A stretch of 64,000 nt of DNA from Methanolobus profundi (GTDB taxonomy: Archaea; Halobacteriota; Methanosarcinia; Methanosarcinales; Methanosarcinaceae), in assembly GCF_900114835.1 (NCBI RefSeq), contig NZ_FOUJ01000004.1:62001-126000 (forward strand). Reading direction: 5' to 3'. How positions within the stretch are numbered: the stretch's first letter is position 1; the number at the start of each line of letters is the position of its first letter. The notes below the pieces were generated by a model that did not search any database, was not told the origin of the DNA, and saw only the letters and a program-made list of their open reading frames with translations. This document shows, in pieces, positions 29,956-44,920 of the stretch. The position numbers and the translations under genes are program-made.

Positions 29956-30981
29956 TTAACTTTTCAATAATTTTATTCCTTTCACCCATATAACAAATGC
30001 AACTAGTGATAAAATCAACGAACGTATTGTCATAATATCACCCATGTAAGCTAAAAATTTTTCAAATTGGGTTTTTTCATTAATTGACTGCGAAAGCTCC
30101 AATGCAACCGATCCTTGTGAAATTCCGTATTCATCTGCCTTGTTAAATATTTTATTCCTATCTTCCCATTTATCATTAACATGTACCTTATAAAACCCAC
30201 TGATTTCATTTTCTCTATATTCAGTTATTAGTTCTTCCAATTCATAGTAACCTATACCAGTTAATTTGCTTTTGTAATAAATATCATCAATCGCTTCTTT
30301 GTATATCAAATCAATAGAATCGTCTACTGCTTTTTCGTTAGTCCATTCTGTTTTCAGATTGCTGCTTTTCAAAATTACAGTTTTGTCCAATACCAATTTA
30401 CCGTTAAGTGTAATGTTTCCTTCTCTCCATATTGTTTTTGCATCAATGTAAGATACTCCATTGAAATGAATTCCATCAGCTAATAAAATGGGTGAATTAT
30501 CATCAATGTTACAATACACACTGTCAGTAGAATTTTCTATATAAATCCATGAACCGTGGAGGTTTATGTTATTAAATGTTGAATTTGTTCCCTCTCCGGC
30601 AAGTCCGATTACCATATTTTCTTTTTCGTCGTCAGTAATTTCAGGGATATAATTTTCTATTGGATAAGTTAGTTCAACCACTGTGTTTTCATCGGTACTG
30701 TTCGGAACAAAAACAACTGCTGTCCCACGTGAATTAGAAATGGCTATGTTTACAGAATATGGATATCCTTGGTAAAATGAATATGTTTCAGTGTCGTCGG
30801 AAGTTAAAACTGACTCACCAACTATTTCTTTATATTGTTTTAAAAATATATCTGCATATTCAAACATATCATCTTCGTCGACATATATGTTGGTGTAACC
30901 GCTGAATAAAAACACTGACAATAATAGTATTAAAAAAAATAGTGACATACTAAACGTGTCATGTTTTTTTCTAAACCCCAT
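29956..30981 (-). CDS. hypothetical protein anchored by membrane segments at both ends
   Basis: Predicted 341-residue protein with a basic start, a hydrophobic segment at about 12-28, an outer domain of about 260 residues rich in Asn, Asp and Thr, and a C-terminal segment (about 316-335) ending KLLKS. I do not recognise the family. The gene is much more AT-rich than the surface-protein island, like its neighbour at 31074, which suggests later acquisition. It converges with the small gene at 29782 with a 3-base gap. Confidence 0.6.
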   Translation of the reverse strand: MGFRKKHDTFSMSLFFLILLLSVFLFSGYTNIYVDEDDMFEYADIFLKQYKEIVGESVLTSDDTETYSFYQGYPYSVNIAISNSRGTAVVFVPNSTDENTVVELTYPIENYIPEITDDEKENMVIGLAGEGTNSTFNNINLHGSWIYIENSTDSVYCNIDDNSPILLADGIHFNGVSYIDAKTIWREGNITLNGKLVLDKTVILKSSNLKTEWTNEKAVDDSIDLIYKEAIDDIYYKSKLTGIGYYELEELITEYRENEISGFYKVHVNDKWEDRNKIFNKADEYGISQGSVALELSQSINEKTQFEKFLAYMGDIMTIRSLILSLVAFVIWVKGIKLLKS

Positions 30982-31073
30982 AACTCATCTTAAAAAAGGC
31001 ATAGTATAAAAGGAATATCTTTTGTTCTGTTTTTTACGTTTTTCAAAAAAAATCACAAAAAATTATTCCATGT

Positions 31074-31286
31074 TCATTTATTGTAATTATCTGAGTCGTT
31101 TGATTCTCTAATCCATCGTTTCAATACTGGAATAGAGTATAATGTGCTTAGTATACCAAAAAACAATGTGGCTGCTAAATCAAAAAGACCCCTTCCAGTA
31201 TACGGAGGAATTGCCATACTTGTTGATATACCAATTAAAACCAATGCCATGAATGTGTCTTCTTTCATATTCTTATCCATCCACAA
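31074..31286 (-). CDS. hypothetical small membrane protein
   Basis: Predicted 70 residues with two hydrophobic segments (about 12-30 and 34-53) and a charged tail (RWIRESNDSDNYNK). The start could also be Met3 or Met7. No family recognised. AT-rich like 29956-30981. Confidence 0.45.
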   Translation of the reverse strand: MWMDKNMKEDTFMALVLIGISTSMAIPPYTGRGLFDLAATLFFGILSTLYSIPVLKRWIRESNDSDNYNK

Positions 31287-31370
31287 CTACGCCATTTCCT
31301 AAAATAAGAGCAAATCCTTTTATCCATTCAAACTACTCCTGAACTTAACAGTACCACTATCAGGAAAAAT

Positions 31371-31378
31371 ATTTATAC
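31371..31378 (+). promoter_or_regulatory. TATA box of modABC
   Basis: ATTTATAC lies about 26 bases before the left half of the ModE-type palindrome, so the transcript start is predicted at about 31400. Confidence 0.5.
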
Positions 31379-31396
31379 AAGAAAGTGGGAGGTTAG

Positions 31397-31420
31397 CGTT
31401 ATGTGCCACCGGACATAACG
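31397..31420 (+). promoter_or_regulatory. ModE-type operator upstream of modA
   Basis: A perfect inverted repeat, CGTTATGT-N8-ACATAACG, lies 51 bases before the modA ATG and over the predicted transcription start. Length, spacing and sequence are close to the molybdate-responsive ModE site of bacterial mod operons as I remember it. A repressor bound here would block initiation when molybdate is plentiful. No modE gene is in the window. Confidence 0.7.
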
Positions 31421-31471
31421 GATTGATAGTTACTGTTGGGTCCGAGTGACAGTAGTAAGAAGGTAGTAATT

Positions 31472-32287
31472 ATGAGACTGAACAAAAAACTGATTCTGGC
31501 TATTGCAGCCATACTGGCACTTGTGGTCTTTGTAAGCGGTTGTACCGATACTAACACAGAAGATGTTGCAACTGATATGGATACCGACACAGGTGAAGTT
31601 ACAACAATAACAGTATCCGCAGCAGCAAGCCTTACAGAAGCATTCACTGAGATCGAAACTGCTTTTGAGACCGAGAACCCGGACATTGATATCAATTACA
31701 ACTTTGCAGGATCAGGAACTCTCAGAATGCAGATAGAAGGTGGTGCTCCGATCGACGTGTTCGCATCAGCATCACAGAGCCATATGGATTTATTAAGTAA
31801 CCAGTCATTGATAGTGGAAGATTCAAGAAAGGACTTTGCAGCAAATACTGTTGTCCTGATAACACCTGTTGATAGTGAACTGGACATCACAGGACCTGAG
31901 GACCTGATATCAGACGACGTTGGAACAATAAGCATAGGAAACCCTGAGACAGCACCAGTAGGAAAGTACACTGTCGAAGCCCTTGAAGAAGCAGGCCTCT
32001 GGGATGAGCTTGCATCAAAGACATTGCTTGCAGAAAATGTAAAACAGGTCCTTGTCTATGTTGAGAGAGGAGAAGTTGATGCAGGGTTTGTATACAGTAC
32101 AGACGCAGCAACTGCAGATGACGGTACTATAGATATAAAAGCAACCATACCAACAGTAACACCTATCAGCTACCCAATAGCAATTGTTTCATCATCAGAA
32201 CACCAGAACGAAGCACAGGTATTTGTTGATTTTATAACTTCTGAAGAAGGAACAACAATACTGGACTCCTACGGATTCACAGCTTAA
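31472..32287 (+). CDS. modA: molybdate ABC transporter substrate-binding lipoprotein
   Basis: Predicted 271-residue lipoprotein: hydrophobic signal with lipobox VSGC (Cys24), then a ModA-type two-lobed binding domain. Landmarks: VSAAASLTEAF near the N-terminus (oxyanion-binding Ser), GSGTLRMQIEGGAPIDVFASAS, IGNPETAPVGKYT and the Tyr/Asp-containing GEVDAGFVYSTDA. It would capture molybdate (or tungstate) outside the cell and deliver it to the ModB permease. The ATG at 31472 follows GAAGGT. First gene of modABC. Confidence 0.93.
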   Translation: MRLNKKLILAIAAILALVVFVSGCTDTNTEDVATDMDTDTGEVTTITVSAAASLTEAFTEIETAFETENPDIDINYNFAGSGTLRMQIEGGAPIDVFASASQSHMDLLSNQSLIVEDSRKDFAANTVVLITPVDSELDITGPEDLISDDVGTISIGNPETAPVGKYTVEALEEAGLWDELASKTLLAENVKQVLVYVERGEVDAGFVYSTDAATADDGTIDIKATIPTVTPISYPIAIVSSSEHQNEAQVFVDFITSEEGTTILDSYGFTA

Positions 32288-32298
32288 AAGGAAAAATA

Positions 32299-32967
32299 AT
32301 GCTCGACCAGATAGGATTTCCCCTGATAATCACTTTGAAGATCGCCGGCCTGTCCACCCTGATAGTGGCGATCACAGGTATGATCATATCATACATACTT
32401 GCAAGACGTGATTTCAAGGGGAAATGGCTGGCCGACGTACTTGTCACTTTACCCCTTGTACTCCCGCCAACAGTAACAGGATACCTTCTGGTAGTGTTGC
32501 TTGGAAAGAATGGAGTGCTTGGAAGCATTCTTTACAGCCTCACTGGCTGGAGTATAGTTTTCACATGGCAGGCAGCGGTCATTGCAGCCTTTGTTGTTTC
32601 ACTGCCACTTATGGTCAAGACCACCACAGCAGCGATCGAGGCCGTGGACAGGGAATACGAATATGCGGCCTTCACACTTGGAAGAAAGGAACTGGATACC
32701 GCACTTTTCATCACTCTTCCCCTGGCTAAAAAAGGAATACTCGCAGGTATTGTCCTCAGTTTTGCAAGAGCTGTAGGAGAATTCGGTGCAACACTGATGT
32801 TCGCAGGGAACATTCCTGGAAGAACGAACACAATGTCAATTTCAATTTACAGCGCATTCCAGGCAGGGAACAATGACCTTGCCAATATGCTGGTCGTGAT
32901 ACTCATAGTAATGTCCCTCCTTTCCATGGCCATAACTGCAAAGATCATAAATGACTGGAAGATATGA
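32299..32967 (+). CDS. modB: molybdate ABC transporter permease
   Basis: Predicted 222-residue inner-membrane protein with about five hydrophobic segments. It has the permease EAA-type loop (EAVDREYEYAAFTLG) that docks to the ATPase and LPLVLPPTVTGY typical of ModB. It starts 11 bases after modA with AAGGA as ribosome site. It forms the transmembrane channel for molybdate with ModA and ModC. Confidence 0.93.
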   Translation: MLDQIGFPLIITLKIAGLSTLIVAITGMIISYILARRDFKGKWLADVLVTLPLVLPPTVTGYLLVVLLGKNGVLGSILYSLTGWSIVFTWQAAVIAAFVVSLPLMVKTTTAAIEAVDREYEYAAFTLGRKELDTALFITLPLAKKGILAGIVLSFARAVGEFGATLMFAGNIPGRTNTMSISIYSAFQAGNNDLANMLVVILIVMSLLSMAITAKIINDWKI

Positions 32968-32976
32968 GGTGCGATC

Positions 32977-34095
32977 ATGGGCATTAAAGCAGATTTCAGA
33001 AAACGGTACTATAGAGATAAGAACGACAAGAAGAAGGGAGTGGAAGCTGCTTTCACACTTGATGCTCAGTTCGAGGTCGGCGATGAACTTGTCGTGTTCT
33101 TCGGTCGCTCCGGATCGGGAAAGACAACTGCCCTCCAGTGCATCTCAGGCTTGTTGGAACCAAATGGCGGAAAGATCGTTGTCAATGGAGATGTCTATTT
33201 CGATTGCCACAAGAGGATCAACCTGCCGGTACAAAAACGCAGCCTTGGATACGTATTCCAGAGCTATGCCCTTTTTCCGCACATGGATGTCAAGAAGAAC
33301 ATCGCATACGGACTTAAAGGCTGGAATGAGAAGGACAAGGAGGAAAGAGTAGATGAGATGCTCCAGATGCTTGAGATAAAGGGACTGGAGAACAACTTCC
33401 CCTCACAATTATCAGGCGGTCAGAAGCAGAGAGTTGCACTGGCACGTGCACTGGCACCTAAACCCAGTATACTTTTACTTGACGAACCATTCTCCGCACT
33501 TGACAGGGTCGTTCGTATGAAGCTCAGGGAGAAAATCAAGGAGATCCAGAGAGAACTGAAGATACCTGTGCTCTTTATCACTCACAACCATGTGGAAGCT
33601 TTCACGATAGCTGACAAGATAGTTATATTCCATGACGGTCGTGTTCAGCAGATAGGAACATCGGAAGATGTGTTCTACCATCCTAAGAATGAGCATGTTG
33701 CAGAACTTGTAGGATTGACCAATATCTTTGAGGATTCGATGTTGGTGGACGAGGACGAGATGGCAGGGACCATTACGATCGGATGTGAACATATGAAAGT
33801 CACTGCAAACCGACCTGACTGTGATATCAAAGAGAAGATATCCTGGGGCATCAGGCCGGAGAATATGCGTATACTCCCGCTGACAGATAAGAACAGCTCC
33901 GAGGAGAACACATTCCCGGCTCTGGTTAAGAGCATAGTTAACAAGGGATCTAGCAAGGTCCTTGCTCTTAGTGTAAAGGAGCACAGCAAGCTCCTGATAG
34001 CCGAGATAGGTAATCAGTCCTTTGAAAATATGGATATTAAGACCGAAGATGAGTGCCTGATACGCATCGAAAGGGACAGGATAGTTCTTTTCTAA
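32977..34095 (+). CDS. modC: molybdate ABC transporter ATP-binding protein
   Basis: Predicted 372-residue ATPase. Walker A GRSGSGKTT at about residues 43-51, Q-loop FQSYALFPH, signature LSGGQKQR, Walker B ILLLDEPFSALD and switch His (ITHNH) are all present. The C-terminal part (about 240-372) is a TOBE/MOP-like oxyanion-sensing domain. The ATG is preceded by GAGGTG overlapping the end of modB. It energises the modB channel. It converges with the gene at 34102, only 6 bases away. Confidence 0.94.
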   Translation: MGIKADFRKRYYRDKNDKKKGVEAAFTLDAQFEVGDELVVFFGRSGSGKTTALQCISGLLEPNGGKIVVNGDVYFDCHKRINLPVQKRSLGYVFQSYALFPHMDVKKNIAYGLKGWNEKDKEERVDEMLQMLEIKGLENNFPSQLSGGQKQRVALARALAPKPSILLLDEPFSALDRVVRMKLREKIKEIQRELKIPVLFITHNHVEAFTIADKIVIFHDGRVQQIGTSEDVFYHPKNEHVAELVGLTNIFEDSMLVDEDEMAGTITIGCEHMKVTANRPDCDIKEKISWGIRPENMRILPLTDKNSSEENTFPALVKSIVNKGSSKVLALSVKEHSKLLIAEIGNQSFENMDIKTEDECLIRIERDRIVLF

Positions 34096-42750: not shown

Positions 42751-42999
42751 ATGGAAACTGAGGGAGAAAAGGATAAAATAATAGTGAAGAACCTGAAGTA
42801 TCTTAATGATTCAGTGCTTGCGATCTTACTTCTGATGCCGGTTACCCTTGTTATCATCTTTGAGGCACTTGATGAGACAGGAAATCTGCAATGGATCTCA
42901 ATCGCAACATGGATTGTATACCTGATGGGATTGTGGTATGTCGCTTCAAGGATATTCAGGCTTAACAAAACGCTTATAGAGTATATTGACGAAAAGTAG
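42751..42999 (+). CDS. small two-segment membrane protein
   Basis: Predicted 82 residues: a charged start (METEGEKDKIIVKN), hydrophobic segments at about 22-40 and 49-66, and a charged tail. It ends 10 bases before the moeA start and is probably co-transcribed. No family recognised. Confidence 0.55.
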   Translation: METEGEKDKIIVKNLKYLNDSVLAILLLMPVTLVIIFEALDETGNLQWISIATWIVYLMGLWYVASRIFRLNKTLIEYIDEK

Positions 43000-43009
43000 A
43001 CCGACCAGA

Positions 43010-44920
43010 ATGGAACGTAAAGAATTCAGAGAACTGACATCCGTTGAGGATGCAAGGACACTGGTTGACAAGATCAGGGTCCAACCGGAAACTACTATTT
43101 TACCAATTGAAGGAACAGCAGGGCAGATACTGGCAGAAGATATACTCTCAGGTGTCAATGTACCTGCTTTCAACCGTTCTATAAAGGACGGATATGCCAT
43201 CCGTGCAAAGGATAGTTATCAGGCAAGTGAACCAGAGCCACAGGAACTTAAGCTCATAGGTGCCATACCTGCCGGCTGTTCAGACAGCTTTTTTGTTGAT
43301 GACGGAGAGGCCATAGAGATATCCACTGGAGCACCGATCCCCGATGGTGCTGATGCGGTTATAATGGTCGAGAACACAAAACAAAAAGAGAATTCCGTGC
43401 TGATCTACCAGCCTGTGCATATCGGTGAGAACATCATGCGCGCAGGGACCGATATCATGAAAGGTGAAAGGATCCTGCGGAAGAACACACGCATGGGATC
43501 CCGTGAGATAGGAGTGCTGGCTTCTATCGGAATGGATAAGGCTCCGGTGAAGAGACTTATCGTGGGAATTATATCAACAGGCAGCGAGTTGATAAAGCCC
43601 GGAGAAGTATTGGGGCTTAGCAAGATATATGATGCGAATTCCTATGCCATCGCAGCAGCGATCGAGGAATGCGGCGGAACTCCGAAGATATATGGTATCG
43701 TTCCTGACGAAGAAGAGGTCATGGAAAGAACACTTGAAACCGCCATCGATGAATGTGATATAGTCCTCACATCAGGAAGCACCTCAGCAGGTGCTGGTGA
43801 CATAATGTATATGATCATTGAGGAAAAGGGAGAGACACTCACACATGGCATTGCCATCAAACCCGGAAAACCTGTTGTTATCGGCATGATAGATGGCACA
43901 CCCACCATAGGACTGCCAGGAAACCCTACATCTGCCCTCAGTATTTTCAACGAGTTCGTGGCACCGATAATTTACAATTCACTTGGCCTTAAGCCATCGT
44001 TTAAGACAAAGGTTACCGCTGTAATGGGAACCGGCATACGTTCCGGAGGCAGAGAAGAGCTATTCCCCGTCGGTGTTGTGAGAGGGAAGGTATACCCTGC
44101 TGACAAAACATCAGGGGCTATAACCACACTATCTGATGCTGACGGAATAATTGAGATCAGGGCACATACCGAGTATATCGAACCGGGATCCGAAGTTGAG
44201 GTCACCATGTTCGGAAACGTAAGGAGTCCTGACCTGATGCTCATAGGAGGGCAGTGTCCTGGAATAGACCTGCTTGAAGAGATGACAGGACTTATGTTCA
44301 GGACATTGAACATGGGGTCGAGTGCAGGATTCACAGCAATGTCCGGCGGGACTGCTGACATAGCATGCGTGAATATGGTGGATGCAGATGGAAATTACAA
44401 TTCATCAGTTCTGGAGAAAATGAACCTTAAGGATGTAGTGCTGGTAAAAGGATACAGACGAGAGCAGGGATTGATATTCAGCCCTGACAACCATGTCTAT
44501 GGACTTGAGGATATTGTAAATCTCCAGATCATCAACAGGAACCGGGGTTCAGGTACAAGGGCACTTTTGGACAGGGAACTCGGACTGCTGGCAGAAGTGA
44601 AAGGAACATCTAAAAGCGAGCTTATCAAAGATCTCAAAGGATATAATTCAGGTTCCAAGACCCACCGGTCGGCCTGTGATGCTGTGAAGAGCGGAAAGGC
44701 GGATGTTGCCTTTGGCATTAGGGCTGCGGCAGAGGAAGCAGGACTTGAATTCATTCCGGTTGCAGAGGATGAGTTTGATTTTGTAATAAGGAAAGACCTT
44801 CTGGAGATAAAAGAAGTACAAATGTTCCTTGAAACACTTAGCTCTGAGGACTTCTCAAAAAGACTTCCACAGGGAATGTATACATACGAACTGACCGGTA
44901 GTATAATATCCTCCTTTTGA
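43010..44920 (+). CDS. moeA: molybdopterin molybdotransferase MoeA fused to a periplasmic-binding-like domain
   Basis: Predicted 636 residues. Residues 1-400 are MoeA: NVPAFNRSIKDGYAI, STGAPIPDGADAVIM, SGSTSAGAGD and PTIGLPGNPTSA, the core of the enzyme that puts molybdate or tungstate into adenylylated molybdopterin. Residues about 405-636 are a PBP-like domain (GQCPGIDLLEE, NRNRGSGTRALLD, GKADVAFGIRAAAE) related to ModA/LysR effector domains, which may bind the oxyanion or a ligand. This fusion is known in archaea. The ATG at 43010 is preferred over a TTG at 42986 inside the upstream gene. Works with the modABC transporter 9 kb away. Confidence 0.9.
   Translation: MERKEFRELTSVEDARTLVDKIRVQPETTILPIEGTAGQILAEDILSGVNVPAFNRSIKDGYAIRAKDSYQASEPEPQELKLIGAIPAGCSDSFFVDDGEAIEISTGAPIPDGADAVIMVENTKQKENSVLIYQPVHIGENIMRAGTDIMKGERILRKNTRMGSREIGVLASIGMDKAPVKRLIVGIISTGSELIKPGEVLGLSKIYDANSYAIAAAIEECGGTPKIYGIVPDEEEVMERTLETAIDECDIVLTSGSTSAGAGDIMYMIIEEKGETLTHGIAIKPGKPVVIGMIDGTPTIGLPGNPTSALSIFNEFVAPIIYNSLGLKPSFKTKVTAVMGTGIRSGGREELFPVGVVRGKVYPADKTSGAITTLSDADGIIEIRAHTEYIEPGSEVEVTMFGNVRSPDLMLIGGQCPGIDLLEEMTGLMFRTLNMGSSAGFTAMSGGTADIACVNMVDADGNYNSSVLEKMNLKDVVLVKGYRREQGLIFSPDNHVYGLEDIVNLQIINRNRGSGTRALLDRELGLLAEVKGTSKSELIKDLKGYNSGSKTHRSACDAVKSGKADVAFGIRAAAEEAGLEFIPVAEDEFDFVIRKDLLEIKEVQMFLETLSSEDFSKRLPQGMYTYELTGSIISSF

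Follow-up and report, generated by a model that had tools for sequence, protein, structure and literature searches.

The modABC Operon and Its Promoter

The window (the whole 64,000-nt stretch that was analysed) belongs to the genome of a Methanolobus species, a genus of the Methanosarcinales, and carries a molybdate transport operon on its plus strand. The first gene, modA (31472–32287), encodes a molybdate substrate-binding protein of 271 aa that scores 200.3 bits against TIGR01256 (cut-off 62.5). It is followed on the same strand by modB (32299–32967), encoding a molybdate permease of 222 aa (TIGR02141, 244.2 bits, cut-off 182.6), and by the gene for an ABC ATPase of 372 aa with ABC_tran and TOBE domains (32977–34095). 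Against TIGR02142, the modC family, the ATPase reaches 254.8 bits, which is under the cut-off of 285.05, and the modC label rests on position. A contig scan with ModA gave four loci, two of them from Methanolobus, with similarities of 86% to M. vulcani and 83% to M. bombayensis. Approximately 9 kb beyond the mod operon, at 42986–44920, the window also encodes a MoeA-type molybdopterin biosynthesis protein of 644 aa (NF011068, 727.3 bits, cut-off 534).

Upstream of modA we find a TTTATA element (31372–31377, plus strand), which we predict to be the TATA box for modABC, and starting 25 bases after the start of this element a 24-bp palindrome, CGTTATGT-N8-ACATAACG (31397–31420, no strand assigned). 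The whole site reads CGTTATGTGCCACCGGACATAACG. Its left half-site, CGTTATGT, occupies 31397–31404 on the plus strand and its right half-site, which reads ACATAACG on the plus strand, occupies 31413–31420 on the minus strand; both 8-base arms are perfect. The modA start lies 51 bases downstream of the site. The initial annotation had described a perfect 8+8 inverted repeat with an 8-base spacer, placed about 26 bases after a TATA box and having the size and half-site pattern of bacterial ModE operators. The repeat was borne out, its distance from TTTATA agrees with that description, and it has the same geometry as the operator of E. coli modA. In E. coli K-12 the sequence upstream of modA, CGTTATATTGTCGCCTACATAACG, is likewise 24 bp long with 8-base arms and an 8-base spacer, and it is located just before modA. 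The two sites share the whole right arm and have a single-base difference in the left arm. The ModE consensus in the excerpt of PMC545781, ATCGNTATATA-[N6]-TATATANCGAT, reduces to CGnTATAT-N8-ATATAnCG, which is the spacing of both the archaeal and the E. coli modA site. Relative to that consensus the archaeal arms have a G in place of an A (TATGT), so that each arm is one base off, as is the right arm in E. coli. The promoter around the archaeal operator is of the archaeal TATA type, unlike that of E. coli.

Palindromicity alone is weak evidence, since perfect repeats of this geometry (8+8, 8-base spacer) occur three times in the window where 1.2 are expected. The exact 16 operator bases are a different matter: the expected number of occurrences is 2e-5 for 64 kb and 0.001 for 3.1 Mb, and none of 100 shuffles of the sequence contained them. 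No strict copy of the operator other than the one at modA is present in the window. A second, short inverted repeat (TACTGT...ACAGTA) was spotted by eye further down the modA leader, at 31429–31458.

Conservation of the Site

A protein search with the ModA of this genome yielded 39 matches in 27 genomes of the genus, and we examined 30 of these 39 loci, including our own modA. The loci are thus a sample chosen without selection on the site. All 30 carry the site within two mismatches, and 27 carry it within one. It is found 36–92 bases before the ModA start, with the arm letters kept and the spacer varying. The reversed pattern was found in none of the 30 loci, nor did a stretch inside the gene yield a match in any of them, even when three mismatches were allowed. 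By eye, a TATA-like element (ACTTATA, TTTATA or similar) can be recognised about 25 bases before the site in the majority of the sequences inspected. Across 149 genomes of the order, a strict search (at most one mismatch) returned 176 sites versus 6 for the reversed controls, and none of the 6 control loci had a neighbour matching our label profiles.

These figures bear on the least favourable reading of the palindrome, namely that it is a chance repeat or an RNA element in the leader. Repeats of this geometry are not rare, as the three in the window illustrate, but the same letters, beyond mere pairing, recur at every modA locus of the genus sample. Taken with the exact-letter expectation and the reversed controls, this led us to reject a chance palindrome. 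As for an RNA leader element, the sole Rfam hit in the interval 30900–32300 at E values up to 0.5 was sub-threshold and lies inside modA, and this candidate was rejected. Together we consider the two explanations extremely improbable.

A ModE Homologue Is Encoded in the Genome

The initial annotation had suggested looking for a ModE-like HTH protein in the genome (3.1 Mb in 18 contigs, 99.96% complete). One was found: a single match to the ModE repressor domain, at C16:290970–291209 of this genome (G000; TIGR00637, E 5.7e-16). The reading frame (L011, 6902–7468) encodes 188 aa, consisting of an HTH/winged helix followed by one C-terminal Mop/TOBE domain. The match to TIGR00637 amounts to 59.8 bits, below the curated cut-off of 98.5, a value reached by no match in the 149 genomes of the order. 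Pfam HTH_1 is also below its cut-off (21.4 against 26.6), and the Mop domain passes in both families (TIGR00638, 63.1 bits, cut-off 55; TOBE, 53.7, cut-off 22.3).

Residues 19–179 match E. coli ModE (1b9m) with E 6.7e-10, and the alignment shows identity at 49 of 181 positions, indicating that both the HTH and the Mop domain are related to those of the E. coli protein. The SYK-AW motif of the HTH is kept, as are S126, A127, R128 and N129 (SARN), T163 and K183 of E. coli ModE; in the alignment, S166 of the E. coli protein is replaced by A. S126, R128, T163 and K183 are presumably the oxyanion-binding residues. In the predicted model of the protein the winged helix is confident and the Mop part weak (mean pLDDT 65.2). 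Chains of E. coli ModE make up eight of the nine best fold matches of the model, and its superposition on the whole of E. coli ModE is poor (TM 0.46, rmsd 14.5).

The excerpt of PMC545781 gives the E. coli layout as two tandem Mop domains, and the archaeal protein has one. Because of this difference we class it as a single-Mop ModE homologue, distinct from the E. coli type. The number of Mop domains has no bearing on the claim that it would work like ModE.

The modE start coincides with the stop codon of a reading frame for an XRE-type HTH protein (L011:6697–6904), and the two genes are therefore probably co-transcribed.

Co-occurrence of Site and Regulator

ModE matches are present in 109 of the 149 genomes and the R/Y site in 97. 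Both occur together in 92 genomes, ModE alone in 17, the site alone in 5 and neither in 35. Expressed differently, the site accompanies ModE in 92 of 109 genomes and is seen in 5 of the 40 without a ModE match, figures that are inflated by shared descent. One genome with the site and no ModE match (G072) is 93% complete. Another genome of 93% completeness, the genus member G138, likewise has no ModE match, yet carries a two-mismatch site before modA. The site is also found near modE itself, before a TupA-like gene, in at least 7 of the 30 ModE loci examined.

Could a DNA-binding protein other than ModE use the palindrome? The five genomes with a site and no ModE match would fit such a protein, and the XRE-type HTH frame abutting modE means that another regulator is at hand. 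Against this, the palindrome matches the operator of E. coli modA in letters and spacing, and the site follows ModE both across genomes and, in the loci mentioned above, to the neighbourhood of modE. We regard a different DNA-binding protein as very unlikely.

A Second Site and the Predicted Regulon

Only two places in the whole genome stand out: the modA site, without mismatches, and a second operator with one mismatch at C7:489695–489718, where TTTATA starts 27 bases before the site. This second site precedes an operon for a ModA-type binding protein (101.6 bits, ModA family cut-off 62.5), a permease and an ATPase. The second modA-type gene also has in its leader a perfect inverted repeat of 11+11 bases around a 4-base loop, TATGTTATGCC-TATT-GGCATAACATA (L012:4743–4768), which approaches but does not share the spacing of the ModE site.

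When up to three mismatches were allowed, the genome gave 9 places compared with 15 for the reversed control, and the weaker matches are thus noise. As operators they were rejected, having fewer members than the reversed controls; one example has two mismatches and lies 11 bases before an ORF for an MFS-type transporter (L003). We also searched the genome with a profile built from 53 of the 105 distinct sites of relatives, scoring 150 of 1554 first-look candidates. At E < 1 this returned only the two known places, and one more appeared at E 4.35. The initial annotation had proposed that further copies of the palindrome might be found, for example at formylmethanofuran dehydrogenase genes. A further copy does exist, before the second molybdate-type operon, but none of the three places with at most two mismatches in this genome is at formylmethanofuran dehydrogenase genes. 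With two strong sites and no third at E < 1 among the candidates scored, the predicted regulon here consists of two importers.

Genes Downstream of the Site in Relatives

To describe what the site precedes in relatives, we collected 151 distinct contexts among the matches listed, counting repeats with the same flanking sequence once. The ORFs came from a simple script, the label profiles were built from neighbours of the same sites, which makes them circular for the labels, and the family names were taken from one member each. In 82 of the 151 contexts listed, the site precedes a gene for a binding protein of the ModA (41 + 14), TupA-like (24) or WtpA (3) type. TTTATA occurs within 80 bases in 31 of these 82 listed transporter contexts, and in 21 of the 31 it starts 25–27 bases before the site. 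PF01497 binding proteins follow the site in 18 of the 151 contexts listed, FmdE genes in 14 and S-layer proteins in 6. The other labels among the listed contexts are NIF3 (4), radical SAM (4), ModD-like (3), NifH (2) and FecCD (2). No label was obtained for 16 of the 151, among which are a WtpB-like permease and an FwdD-like gene, each below cut-off, as well as two contexts with FmdB about 1 kb away. The ModD-like proteins and the examples taken for the TupA-like and PF01497 groups are below the NCBIfam cut-offs; the TupA-like example scores 177.4 bits against a cut-off of 400, while WtpA scores 480.4 against 355.

The TupA-like and WtpA contexts raise the question of the ligand, as these are tungstate-binding proteins, and ModE might bind the site yet have tungstate as its main signal, or respond equally to both oxyanions, in which case the switch would report the two together. 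Also in favour is the best score of the second ATPase encoded in this genome, which is with WtpC (436.8, cut-off 440). On the other hand, the two binding proteins encoded here score 200.3 and 101.6, each above the 62.5 set for the ModA family, and the TupA-like contexts belong to other families of the order. We consider a mainly tungstate-responsive or indiscriminate ModE unlikely, though clearly less so than the involvement of another protein, and retain molybdate as the expected signal for the genome studied here.

Proposed Model for the Control of modABC by ModE

Taken together, the palindrome at 31397–31420 is very probably an operator through which a ModE-type regulator controls the Methanolobus modABC operon, and molybdate-bound ModE would block transcription there. 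The interpretation of the site as a ModE operator, as put forward in the initial annotation, is supported: two CGnTATAT-type arms 8 bases apart are found at molybdate transport promoters in a genome that encodes a ModE-type protein.

In archaea, transcription starts about 25 bases from the TATA box. The modA transcription start would consequently be expected inside or beside the first half-site. When molybdate is sufficient, the 188-aa ModE would bind molybdate as its presumed ligand and, probably as a dimer, sit on the two CGTTATGT half-sites. Since the TATA box precedes the start of the site by 25 bases, ModE on the DNA would lie over the expected start and prevent transcription of modABC. 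When molybdate is scarce, ModE would leave the DNA and the importer would be made. The second molybdate-type operon should be under the same ModE, acting at the one other strong site that this genome contains.

An inverted repeat before molybdate transport genes, together with a ModE-type HTH protein, is likewise described for Desulfovibrio in the excerpt of PMC545781. The consensus given there, CGGTCACG-[N14]-CGTGACCG, differs from the archaeal site in letters and spacing, and the Desulfovibrio ModE is, according to the same excerpt, a single DNA-binding domain. The operator letters of E. coli and those across this archaeal order are nearly alike.

Control by ModE has been proposed for Archaea before. 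The title of a 2003 work by Studholme and Pau (BMC Microbiol 3:24) claims a ModE element in Archaea. In the passage available from PMC9765008 (2022), modABC of the Methanosarcinales is stated to be under the control of ModE, which also affects nitrogenase types, and the Methanococcales are said to be without modE. The statement on ModE control, which in that passage rests on two other works, concerns the same regulator and operon as here; the operator is not given in the passage. The excerpt of PMC6147048 contains no mention of ModE. In the literature searched we recognised no experimental paper on archaeal ModE, which is no claim of absence from print. Our prediction is preceded by the 2003 title and by PMC9765008 and is not the first. 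For the window itself a published expectation is confirmed, and the operator adds a well-supported case to what had been proposed for relatives, this time backed by counts and controls. In a methylotrophic methanogen, a named DNA site is hereby linked to both the gene for a regulator and an operon for transport, which makes molybdenum control directly testable.

Possible Wider Role of ModE in the Order

The contexts in relatives indicate less expected targets as well: FmdE, an S-layer protein and a region flanking nitrogenase genes. A more tentative reading, to which we give somewhat less than even weight, is that the single-Mop ModE could be a broad Mo/W regulator in the order acting through one operator, and that in five genomes of one genus it has lost the oxyanion-binding motif. 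Its importer targets would then comprise ModABC, TupA-like, WtpA and PF01497-type systems. Other targets would be FmdE, ModD-like and NIF3 genes, the gene for an S-layer protein and the stretch separating a radical SAM gene from nifH, the last in two genomes. These are G131 and G141 (L149 and L175), each with one site in that stretch, from where ModE could influence the nitrogenase genes.

The genus concerned is represented by seven genomes. In five of them (G045, G041, G084, G121 and G009; L265–L269) ModE keeps the SYKHAW motif of the HTH, but its Mop domain is without the SARN and K motifs. With the oxyanion-binding motif lost, ModE in these five would, on this tentative reading, work independently of molybdate or respond to a different signal. 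The five genomes still have sites before transporter genes. In the remaining two genomes, G090 and G133, ModE retains the SARN and K motifs. The modE reading frame contains an in-frame TAG in G121 (L268) and both a TAG and a TGA in G133 (L271).
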